From Shewanella sp. NFH-SH190041 (GTDB lineage Bacteria > Pseudomonadota > Gammaproteobacteria > Enterobacterales > Shewanellaceae): a stretch of 64,000 nt of DNA. A model generated the notes under the pieces. The model had not been told where the DNA came from. It worked only from the letters and a program-made list of their open reading frames with translations, and did no database searches. Shown here in pieces: positions 10,071-44,118 of this stretch (position 1 is its first letter; the number at the start of each line of letters is the position of its first letter). The stretch lies in the NCBI RefSeq assembly GCF_024363255.1, contig NZ_AP026070.1, forward strand, positions 2,914,001-2,978,000. Reading direction: 5' to 3'. The position numbers were made by a program, and so were the translations under genes.

Positions 10071-10146
10071 TGGGGTGGCTAATGGGACTCGAACCCACGA
10101 CAACTGGAATCACAATCCAGGGCTCTACCAACTGAGCTATAGCCAC
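10071..10146 (-). tRNA. tRNA-His (GTG)
   Basis: Full cloverleaf with encoded CCA. The anticodon loop TTGTGAT gives GTG, the T arm has GGTTCGAGTCC, and the acceptor is GTGGCTA with an additional G at -1 (10147), the identity element of histidine tRNA. Last gene of a Pro-Arg-His operon. Confidence 0.97.
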
Positions 10147-10155
10147 CACATAAAG

Positions 10156-10232
10156 TGGTACGCCCGGCAGGATTCGAACCTGCGACCATCCGCTTAGAAG
10201 GCGGATGCTCTATCCAACTGAGCTACGGGCGC
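10156..10232 (-). tRNA. tRNA-Arg (TCT)
   Basis: 77-base cloverleaf with encoded CCA. Anticodon loop CTTCTAA gives TCT, reading AGA/AGG; D arm GCTCAGTTGG and T arm GGTTCGAATCC are standard. Confidence 0.96.
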
Positions 10233-10305
10233 ATGATCTGCAGATTTAACCTGCATCCTAACCGTTGATAAACAAGGTGTAAAGTTCACCTCATTTAAAA
10301 ATTCT

Positions 10306-10382
10306 TGGTCGGTGATAGAGGATTCGAACCTCTGACCCTCTGCTCCCAAAGCAGATGCGCTACCAGACTGCGCTAATCACCG
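10306..10382 (-). tRNA. tRNA-Pro (TGG)
   Basis: 77-base cloverleaf with encoded CCA. Anticodon loop TTTGGGA gives TGG; acceptor CGGTGAT pairs with ATCACCG. First gene of the tRNA operon. Confidence 0.96.
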
Positions 10383-41531: not shown

Positions 41532-42600
41532 ACTCTTTATGCCTTATCGAAATAACATTCATTTACATTAAGTAAAAGCCAGCTCGCAAACAAGTGAAAC
41601 CTTGTTTATTGATATTTCGCCAATGTGTAGCAGTCCAAAACTGTCAATACAAAGCTAATCCGTAAGTAACCTTATGTTTACTTTACGATTACTATGCAAG
41701 CATCAAGCTGGTTCATTATTACCAGTAACGCCAGAAACCATCTGTATTTTCAATATTTCCGCACCTGAACTATCTAAATGAAGTCAGAAACACAAAATAA
41801 AGATTAACTCCTTTATAAATAACAGATTAAATAAATTCAGCATCGTTAAATAACTTAGCGTACCAAACGCTGTTTTATCGCAACCATAAAATACACAGCG
41901 AAAAACAGTTTCAAACGGATAAAAAGTGACGCCATTAATAACACTATTGAATCGCCAATAAATTGTTTTTTAATTGTTTAATTCATGAATCACAAATGAG
42001 AAATAAGGGAAAAACGATAGCCAAGTTCGCTTTTCACGATAAAGCAATTAAAAATTTAAAAAATCCCTAATACAGGGTTTATCTATTCAAACACTCATCA
42101 CAACGAAGTTGATGAAAAAATAACGCCCATCAACATGAGCCTATTTGCGATTAAGGCTGCTTTTAACCCGTCATGATGTATCAAATTACGCCGATGTGCC
42201 GAAGCACCGGCTCAGCATCTTCTTCACTATGCTTGCTATCAGTGACTTAGCGCCAAACCACAGCATCACACCTCAAATACAACACCAACCCAAGTAAAAT
42301 TAGCCTATTGCTAAAAAAGTCACTCTAGCTCGATTGCCAAACAGCGTTTGCAGGCCTGATAAAACCATGCAATAGCAGGCAAACATCGTGTCGCGCCACA
42401 ATGCTCTTTGTCCGCTAAAAAAATTTTTTGCAAAGTGATAGATCATTATCTCGATATCAAAAAGCTGTAAAATCCGGCTAATGTAAAAAAATAGTTTTAT
42501 TTCAGATAATAAAAATACCGCAATAGTTAAATACAAGAAAAAGTAATAATAAATGCATCATTGCAGCTTGTGTTTGATACAAAGCATACAGTAGACTTCG
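41532..42600. other. Long gene-free, AT-rich region upstream of the nupC leader
   Basis: More than 1 kb without any frame of coding character in a window that is otherwise tightly packed. It contains a hairpin at 41868-41901 (CGCTGT/ACAGCG with TTTAT/ATAAA) and a very stable one at 42190-42211 (GCCG-at-GTGC-CGAA-GCAC-CGGC; on the minus strand the loop is a TTCG tetraloop). Only a 78-codon minus frame at 42300-42536 is open and it lacks a ribosome site. It may hold small RNA genes; none can be named. Confidence 0.5.
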
Positions 42601-42868
42601 CTCCCGGCCTGGGTCTGACCTGACTCCTGTTCTGGTCGGAACTTCCCATAGCCACCTGATTTATCAAGCTGTCACCAGGATGTGAATGACCCAATGGAGC
42701 CGGACCGGCGTCACATTTGGCTTGTTATCTGGGTGACTTCCATGTTGTATTTGCCGGATCCCAAGGGATCATACTTGTGCCTAAACGCACCTGTATCCCC
42801 CGTAAGAACCGCCGCAGCTGGCTACCTGATACCTGCGGTTTTGGTTTGATTTATTACTAGGGGGAAAC
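42601..42868 (+). ncRNA. Structured 5' leader of nupC, candidate cis-regulatory RNA
   Basis: Nested helices cover nearly the whole leader: TCTGACC/GGTCGGA (42614-42620 with 42634-42640); GTCACC/GGTGAC (42671-42676 with 42732-42737) enclosing ATGTGA/TCACAT (42680-42685 with 42711-42716) and GCCG/CGGC; ATAC-GTGC/GCAC-GTAT (42771-42780 with 42787-42796); and CCGCAG/CTGCGG (42812-42817 with 42833-42838) followed by a T-rich tract. TCCCCC at 42796-42801 is a perfect complement of the Shine-Dalgarno GGGGGA (42860-42865). It matches no riboswitch class that I know; the nupC context suggests nucleoside or nucleotide sensing, by inference. Confidence 0.5.
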
Positions 42869-44074
42869 ATGCAACTGTTAATCAGTTTGATTGGCGTTGT
42901 AGCACTGATAGCCATTGCTTGGCTGTTATCGGAAAAACGTACTGCCATTAACTGGCGTACCATTATTGGCGCTTTTGTGCTTCAGGCCGGCTTTGCCGCC
43001 TTAGTGCTTTATATTCCTGCAGGCCAGCACGCTCTGCAAAGTGTCAGTAAAAGCGTGACCGGGCTATTGAGCTTTGCCGATCAAGGGATCAATTTCCTAT
43101 TTGGTGGTCTAACGCCTAATTTTGTTTTTGCCTTCCGTGTTTTACCTTTGATTATCTTTATCAGCGCACTGATTTCCATGCTCTATTACCTAGGCATTAT
43201 GCAGTGGGTTATCCGCATTATTGGTGGTGCCTTGCAACGGATTTTAGGGATCAGCCGCTCCGAGTCCATTATCGCTACCGGTAATATTTTCCTCTCCCAA
43301 GGTGAAAGTCCGCTGCTTATCCGACCTTTCTTATCTCGTATGACTCGCTCAGAACTGTTCACTGTAATGACGTGCGGTATGGCATCTGTCGCAGGTTCTG
43401 TACTGGGTGGCTACGCCGCCATGGGTGTGGAAATGAAGTACCTGTTAGCTGCTAGTTTTATGGCAGCACCAGGCAGCTTAATGATGGCCAAATTGCTTAT
43501 TCCTGAACAAGGAACGCCTGTCGCGCAAGACGAAGTGCAGATGGAAAAAAGCGAAGAAAGTAATGTGATTGACGCCATGGCTGCCGGCGCCATGAACGGT
43601 ATGAAAGTTGCCGTTGCCATCGGTACCATGTTGCTGGCTTTTATCAGTGTCATTGCCATGGTCAACCACGGTCTGACCGCTGTCGGCCACTGGTTCGGTT
43701 TTGAGCATGTCACCATGCAAAGTATCTTGGGTTATATCTTTGCCCCTATTGCTTATCTGATTGGCGTGCCTGCCCATGAGATGGCAGCCGCTGGCTCATT
43801 AATCGGCCAAAAGCTCATCCTAAACGAATTTGTCGCATATCAAGAGTTTATTCCTCTGAAACAAATTCTGTCTGCCCACACCCAAGTAATCATCACTTTT
43901 GCCCTGTGTGGTTTTGCCAATATTGGATCTATTGCGATTCAATTAGGTTCTATTGGTGTACTGGCACCAGAGCGCCGCGGTGAAATTGCAAGCCTGGGTC
44001 TGCGCGCAGTGCTTGCTGCAACGCTGGCAAACCTGATGAGTGCGGCTCTGGCAGGCATTTTCGTCGGTCTGTAA
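42869..44074 (+). CDS. nupC: NupC-type concentrative nucleoside transporter
   Basis: A 401-residue CNT-family inner-membrane importer driven by H+ or Na+. It has the family organisation: three N-terminal helices, a gate region GGLTPNFVFAFRVLPLIIF, IFLSQGESPLLIRPF, and the substrate region ending FALCGFANIGSIAIQLGSIG. ATG 42869 is preceded by Shine-Dalgarno GGGGGA, which the leader can mask. Monocistronic, closed by a strong terminator. Confidence 0.94.
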   Translation: MQLLISLIGVVALIAIAWLLSEKRTAINWRTIIGAFVLQAGFAALVLYIPAGQHALQSVSKSVTGLLSFADQGINFLFGGLTPNFVFAFRVLPLIIFISALISMLYYLGIMQWVIRIIGGALQRILGISRSESIIATGNIFLSQGESPLLIRPFLSRMTRSELFTVMTCGMASVAGSVLGGYAAMGVEMKYLLAASFMAAPGSLMMAKLLIPEQGTPVAQDEVQMEKSEESNVIDAMAAGAMNGMKVAVAIGTMLLAFISVIAMVNHGLTAVGHWFGFEHVTMQSILGYIFAPIAYLIGVPAHEMAAAGSLIGQKLILNEFVAYQEFIPLKQILSAHTQVIITFALCGFANIGSIAIQLGSIGVLAPERRGEIASLGLRAVLAATLANLMSAALAGIFVGL

Positions 44075-44091
44075 GCAAACGTTATCAATAT

Positions 44092-44118
44092 AAAAAAGGC
44101 GCCCAAGGCGCCTTTTTT
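44092..44118 (+). terminator. Terminator of nupC
   Basis: AAAAAAGGCGCC/GGCGCCTTTTTT with a three-base loop. Confidence 0.92.

Follow-up and report, generated by a model that had tools for sequence, protein, structure and literature searches.

Translationally coupled leader open reading frames (ORFs) end close to, or over, the start of the next gene, and their translation opens a hairpin that covers the next Shine-Dalgarno sequence (SD). Among proteins of the CsrA/RsmA type, RsmE binds A(N)GGAX loops closed by C-G, as a dimer with two equal sites (excerpts of PMC4005645), and a csrA mutant of one pathogenic E. coli accumulates nucleosides and nucleobases (excerpts of a review, PMC7652899). Here, we describe a conserved RNA in the leader of nupC in Shewanella, which is a cis-regulatory leader RNA family listed neither in Rfam nor in the literature searched, and hence a new family. 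We tentatively read it as a conserved cis-acting translational gate, which a CsrA/RsmA-type dimer may hold in its closed form and which, in the locus analysed, would reach nupC by coupling to a leader ORF; taken as a whole, we hold this reading with somewhat less than even confidence.

The stretch analysed (the window) comprises 64,000 nucleotides of Shewanella sp. NFH-SH190041 (GCF_024363255.1, NZ_AP026070.1 2,914,001–2,978,000, forward strand), and coordinates below are window positions on the plus strand unless marked otherwise. The nupC gene (42869–44074) encodes a CNT-family nucleoside transporter (TIGR00804, 473 bits, cut-off 442) and is followed at 44090–44118 by an ordinary terminator-like hairpin (AAAAAAGGCGCCCAAGGCGCCTTTTTT, by eye). 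An earlier note had read the nupC leader as a switch made of three mutually exclusive pairings with a terminator-like stem between them. The pairings it named are in the sequence: TCCCCC (42796–42801) and GGGGGA (42860–42865) are exact complements, and CCGCAG (42812–42817) with CTGCGG (42833–42838) as well as GATCC..GGGATC are all there as described. The terminator-like stem fared differently, a consensus scan of 42300–43000 giving 0 terminator-like sites. With the exception of the nupC SD, the listed segments fall within an open leader ORF (42742–42849) that the note had overlooked, and the conserved, covarying RNA occupies 42604–42757, upstream of most of them. The three pairings are the downstream half of a larger object, and of the other leaders read, only that of S. 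corallii (L034) has the TCCCCC-type hairpin and the CCGCAG stem. What holds of the note's interpretation is an unlisted, covarying RNA with an anti-SD; the three pairings are not the conserved switch, and what the putative conserved SD gate would control is the leader ORF rather than the window's nupC SD. The fold of the 290-base leader has a predicted energy of -97.7 kcal/mol (z -2.5), with 3 of 200 dinucleotide shuffles as good.

By eye, a -10-like box (TAGACT, 42592–42597) places the expected transcription start near 42603, and relatives have a similar box in the corresponding position; a promoter consensus scan gave no promoter-like site on the leader strand and did not pick up the TAGACT box. 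Because the box recurs at the equivalent place in relatives, a start downstream of 42780 appears unlikely. Farther up than the -10 box, TGTGA words that resemble CRP sites can be seen by eye ~35–40 bases ahead of the expected start in L048–L064, L139 and L164.

The core of the RNA spans ~85 bases (42653–42736) and consists of a helix, P1, and two hairpins, P3 and P4/P5, each with a GGA loop; it carries an SD just 3' of P1 and an anti-SD 5' of P1. P1 pairs CAAGC (42665–42669) with GCUUG (42720–42724), as assigned with covariance models R1 (built from 16 leaders) and R2 (37 sequences) and the fitted alignment. Hairpin P3 (42672–42685) pairs UCAC (42672–42675) with GUGA (42682–42685) around a loop containing GGA (42678–42680). 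The next element (42690–42709) holds P5 (CC 42690–42691 with GG 42702–42703), the second GGA (42696–42698) and a conserved CCGGC, and is enclosed by P4, which is weak in the window (UGA 42687–42689 with UCA 42711–42713). The leader-ORF SD (GGGUGA, 42731–42736, from the sequence) adjoins P1 and lies opposite the anti-SD (CACC, 42653–42656, by eye). An outer helix, P0, assigned by comparing cognate with shuffled pairings, joins the first bases of the expected transcript (CCGGC, 42604–42608) to codons 4–6 of the leader ORF (GCCGG, 42753–42757). Across the nupC leaders of Shewanella, Photobacterium and Vibrio, the core reads ACAAGC-YGU, a short GGA hairpin, ACCC..A.GGA...GG.CC.GC, GCUUGU and the SD. 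The SD stands at the same place in relatives, and the anti-SD, by eye, is CACC(U) in Shewanella, Photobacterium and others, ACC in Vibrio, and CUCC opposite GGAG in one further Shewanella locus (L202).

The helices covary among orthologous leaders, as the earlier note had proposed to check. On alignment A6, whose 39 sequences were fitted to the covariance model and hence lean towards it, 94.8% of cells pair, 10 of the 12 pairs show double changes, and the covariation score was reached by 0 of 500 shuffles. P1 is paired in 90.9% of cells, with double changes in 5 of 6 pairs, P3 in 98%, with double changes in 4 of 4, and P5 in 100%, with CG changed to UA in 3. By eye, P1 ACAAGC/GCUUGU becomes ACAUGC/GCGUGU in a genome tentatively labelled Aeromonas-like (L166) and ACAAGU/ACUUGU in L202; in some Shewanella leaders P1 is shorter and differs in sequence. 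The pairs UCAC/GUGA, UCUC/GAGA and UUUC/GAGA all occur in P3, and P5 takes the form CC/GG and, in L202, UC/GA. For P4, cognate strands beat shuffled combinations (0 of 5000 as good for 36 sequences, and likewise for 12); the signal is strong in, and mostly carried by, leaders of the two further gene contexts described below, whereas many nupC leaders have only a weak P4, in partial competition with P3. Shuffles were as good as cognate P0 strands in 22 of 10000 trials for 21 leaders, 121 of 10000 for 10 and 45 of 10000 for 6, and P0 is weak or absent in Vibrio.

Conservation extends to unpaired and junction positions. GGA is present in both loops of all 39 aligned sequences, and an A precedes it, with a variable base between, in 29 of 36 first loops and 34 of 36 second loops; these 36 were picked by a pattern that itself requires GGA, and 2 of 38 sequences were not found by it. 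The A is missing ahead of the first GGA in 7/36, and an extra stem is inserted directly after it in 7/36. Outside the GGA loops, G15, G18, C101, G113, G118 and C119 (positions of the fitted alignment) are conserved in 38–39 of 39. A further helix, P2 (GCYG with CNGC), has standard pairs at 15-119 in 38/39 and at 16-118 in 39/39; its third, middle pair is non-standard in 14/39 (C.A in 11). We rejected P2 as a simple closing helix on account of that middle pair, and kept it only as a possible crossing helix. G15-C16 can pair either in P1 or with 118-119 in P2, which would cross P4, and this alternative pairing is a possible switch.

A search with the leader DNA found matches in only 3 of 60 relatives, the window's own genome included. 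At E<=0.1, model R1 matched 60 of the 394 genomes of the order that were searched, with three or more of these matches (L172–L174) due to chance. R2 reached 70 of the 394 at E<=1, and 62 at E<=0.0011, again with the window's genome, in 8 families; of the matches weaker than E 0.0011 only those in G074 and G225 were accepted, by context, and one in G461 has E 0.53. Beyond the order, among 369 sampled genomes of the class, E<=0.1 was reached only in the window's own genome and at L179, which was judged chance after a look at its ORFs. Further covariance matches were judged chance after their loci were read (L172, L173, L174, L198–L201, L203, L205–L208, L212, L213 and L215). In viral contigs, 43 stretches match ACAAGCYGTCNCANGGA, none of them at E<=0.1 with R2. 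Carriers include Shewanella, Photobacterium and Vibrio; the more divergent Grimontia, Enterovibrio and Veronia reach only E 0.2–2.7, yet with the match at the expected place, and we infer that Agarivorans and Alginatibacterium are carriers too.

The RNA tracks nupC closely. A nupC orthologue at E<=1e-170 occurs in 21 of 97 Shewanella genomes, and every one of the 21 carries the RNA; of the other 76 genomes only G001 has a strong RNA match, likewise before a nupC-like frame. That genome is filed as Shewanella with 4% contamination, and its contig C50 (L002) carries a Photobacterium-type leader with a matching leader ORF, by transfer or contamination. Nine loci of more distant nupC paralogues (L025–L033) have no RNA. 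In some Shewanella (L013, L009), insertions that by eye resemble short repeated elements interrupt the nupC leader. In a set of 142 loci, which includes many mutual duplicates and from which chance loci and some further duplicates were left out, the downstream gene is nupC in 117, a CBU_0592-family gene in 11, a gene for a 34-residue protein in 4, and none of these in 10, namely the nine paralogues and L114, with no nupC start in reach. The start codon lies 32–40 bases after the core where no leader ORF intervenes: 33 for nupC in several Vibrio (e.g. L057, L063), 32–40 for CBU_0592 and 39 for the 34-residue ORF. In the sequences compared, the core thus stands before nupC and two other kinds of gene, with the SD of the first ORF directly 3' of P1 and facing an anti-SD.

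Members of the CBU_0592 family (NF047864), three-helix membrane proteins, directly follow the RNA at L175, L194–L197, L169–L171 and L178. The predicted fold has three helices (mean pLDDT 91); Foldseek gave no match at E<=0.001, with SemiSWEET chains only at E above 4, and VIA-align returned mostly helical bundles in a range that its own notes call uninformative. On these structure comparisons we claim no function for the family, and the literature searched says nothing on it.

The third kind of gene encodes a 34-residue microprotein (MSYTGK..WQNTWF...LRGGLY.M.FKG; L259–L288) with matches in 92 of 97 Shewanella genomes at E<=0.01, and two or three neighbouring copies in some. It has no Pfam match, and a literature search with its first letters returned nothing. 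The sequence before the ORF allows all four helices in L202, L204 and L214. At the 30 best of the 92 genomes' loci, R2 matches occur in 15, all directly upstream of the ORF, with E 0.003–2 for 91 kb, most of these scores being meaningless on their own; per-genome scores are weak (E 0.13–0.66). By eye, these leaders have further GGA hairpins upstream. From the weak scores together with position, the 34-residue ORF is likely a third context of the RNA. In L202 the next long ORF is a PF00860 permease (xanthine/uracil family), ~500–800 bases on and past a terminator-like hairpin (by eye); at several other such loci the next ORF within reach is something else. The window's genome has its own locus of this kind (L289, G000:C1:946700-950700, at about bases 1220–1620), where R2 gives no match; several GGA hairpins stand there before a short ORF (MPYQAMKSFYWQNTWFDARVLRGGIFTMPV), and beyond it lies a PF00860-like permease ORF.

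In the window, the gated SD serves a leader ORF of 35 codons (42742–42849; MLYLPDPKGSYLCLNAPVSPVRTAAAGYLIPAVLV followed by a stop). In a predicted fold from the leader-ORF start to early nupC, 42797–42801, part of the TCCCCC anti-SD (42796–42801) inside this ORF, pairs with 42860–42864 of the nupC SD at probability 0.98–0.99. Since 26 of 200 shuffled upstream sequences hide the nupC SD equally well, only moderately beyond chance, the hiding alone is not striking; in S. corallii the nupC SD is hidden in the same way by other bases, and 0 of 200 shuffles are as good. The TCCCCC/GGGGGA hairpin starts within the leader ORF and covers the nupC SD, so that translation of nupC in the window probably depends on coupling. 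Leader ORFs of ~33–57 codons occupy the gated place in the window, S. corallii, Photobacterium and other Vibrio; that of S. corallii has 33 codons and the same C-terminal words as the window's. In the window, S. corallii, Photobacterium and several Vibrio, the ORF stops 4–20 bases away from the nupC start or overlaps it (TAATG in Photobacterium). Coupling is not a general rule, since leaders tentatively labelled Moritella-like, and most of those from Shewanella, have a short ORF or one whose stop is distant from nupC. Among the 10 distinct leader ORFs of one Vibrio group, the 9 of equal length give a pN/pS of 0.14, with 64, 22 and 172 changes by codon position; three other groups give 0.41, 0.60 and 0.63, and the V. 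ordalii/anguillarum pair differs by one base. Purifying selection, and with it translation of the leader ORF, appears firmly supported in that one Vibrio group only, and leader peptides differ between genera.

With P1 and P0 closed and the anti-SD paired, the SD of the first ORF would be hidden and its translation off. In the window, an untranslated leader ORF would leave the TCCCCC/GGGGGA hairpin to hide the nupC SD (GGGGGA, 42860–42865), and ribosomes translating the leader ORF would open the hairpin and free it. The putative gate thus acts on the leader ORF in the window and directly on nupC in some Vibrio. In what is the weakest step of the scheme, a CsrA/RsmA-type dimer would bind both A(N)GGA loops at once and hold the closed form, and its release would turn nupC on. 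The paired A(N)GGA loops are what suggests CsrA/RsmA, a trigger we propose tentatively and rate a little below evens; the additional GGA hairpins of the 34-residue leaders and the build-up of nucleosides in the csrA mutant speak for it as well; against nucleoside sensing, itself something we infer, the protein is at least as good a candidate. The loops with a missing A or an inserted stem at the first GGA fit a CsrA loop poorly, and CsrA would not need the nearly invariant G15, G18, C101, G113, G118 and C119. The GGA words do not overlap the gated SD of nupC leaders, which is GGGUGA, AGGUG or AGGUA; GGAG-type SDs occur in some CBU_0592 and 34-residue leaders. To our knowledge, not every CsrA target needs a GGA that overlaps the SD. 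On the coupling side, pN/pS values of 0.41–0.63, or a single change, outside the best Vibrio group argue less strongly for a translated leader ORF.

Nearly as likely as CsrA/RsmA is a metabolite riboswitch: the same gate, with a core that binds a small molecule, most plausibly of nucleoside or purine type, and so stabilises the closed or the open form. It explains the conserved bases outside both GGA loops better than CsrA does, a P2 that crosses P4 would contend with P1 for shared GC bases, and the contexts include a nucleoside transporter and, downstream of some 34-residue loci, the PF00860 permease. That permease, however, lies far downstream behind a terminator-like hairpin, the third pair of P2 is often non-standard, and an aptamer would not usually have a pair of loops that share the A(N)GGA word with its free base. 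Such an RNA would be a new riboswitch class in at least eight families of one order, gating a leader ORF coupled to nupC, or nupC, CBU_0592 or the 34-residue ORF directly. A P2/P4 pseudoknot incompatible with part of P1 may be its means. We regard such a class as a real possibility, though a doubtful one.

The remaining explanations are less likely. A static structure, in which the core makes the mRNA more stable or keeps translation low and constant with no switch, would not need conserved loop and junction bases, a constant start-codon placement or three gene contexts, and is unlikely. Control by the leader peptide, with translation speed or stalling on the leader ORF as the signal and the conserved RNA only setting initiation, is in keeping with the purifying selection in one Vibrio group and with the several groups in which the ORF stop is close to the nupC start or overlaps it. 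Yet the peptides vary between genera, some Vibrio, CBU_0592 and 34-residue contexts keep the RNA without a leader ORF, and the scan gave no terminator-like site in the leader, which together make this quite improbable. The earlier note's own version, in which the three pairings around 42765–42865 form a ligand- or protein-controlled nupC switch, can point to pairings that exist, to a nupC SD hidden in the predicted fold and to S. corallii, which keeps an equivalent hairpin with other bases. We consider it very improbable, since among the leaders read only S. corallii shares the pairings, the segments are leader-ORF codons and the widely conserved part lies upstream.

The earlier note could match the leader to no known RNA class, and the comparison with Rfam names none. 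Taking a covariance score at or above the family gathering score as membership in Rfam 15, no family matches the window's leader, and only tRNAs reach gathering in the window; three tRNA genes lie at 10074–10382 on the minus strand. In relatives (10 at gathering, and 6 and 10 at permissive thresholds), again nothing but tRNAs reaches gathering, and no family falls on the core. The literature searched describes no RNA before nupC; supplements and a 2017 survey, which reportedly presented 224 candidate RNAs, lay outside the search. By term search, nupC is absent from PMC11109978, PMC8632094, PMC2864571 and PMC6429828. The RNA is a gammaproteobacterial cis-regulatory element with a proposed start-site gate that is directly testable. 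It opens a way to study how nucleoside uptake is regulated and provides an initial hint at what regulates the CBU_0592 membrane proteins and a conserved Shewanella microprotein. It also poses a sharp choice between CsrA and a metabolite; if a metabolite is bound, the RNA is a new riboswitch class.

Compared with known systems, the leader resembles CsrA/RsmA (RsmE) targets such as glgC or hcnA (excerpts of PMC4005645 and PMC7652899), in that it has, close to a start site, what look in most sequences like A(N)GGA loops of the C-G-closed kind, two or more in number, which a dimer could bridge. It departs from them in that the gated SD of nupC leaders is no GGA site, in the conservation of P1, junction and post-P5 bases, and in the stem that follows the first GGA in 7/36. 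With SD-hiding riboswitches it shares a compact core in the 5' leader, an SD fixed beside the closing helix and more than one gene context, but no Rfam family matches, and here two equal GGA words stand in two hairpins. As in translationally coupled leaders, a short ORF ends, in several groups, close to or over the next start, and its translation would open a hairpin over the next SD; in contrast to them, the peptide is not conserved between genera, and a conserved RNA would gate the SD of the leader ORF itself.
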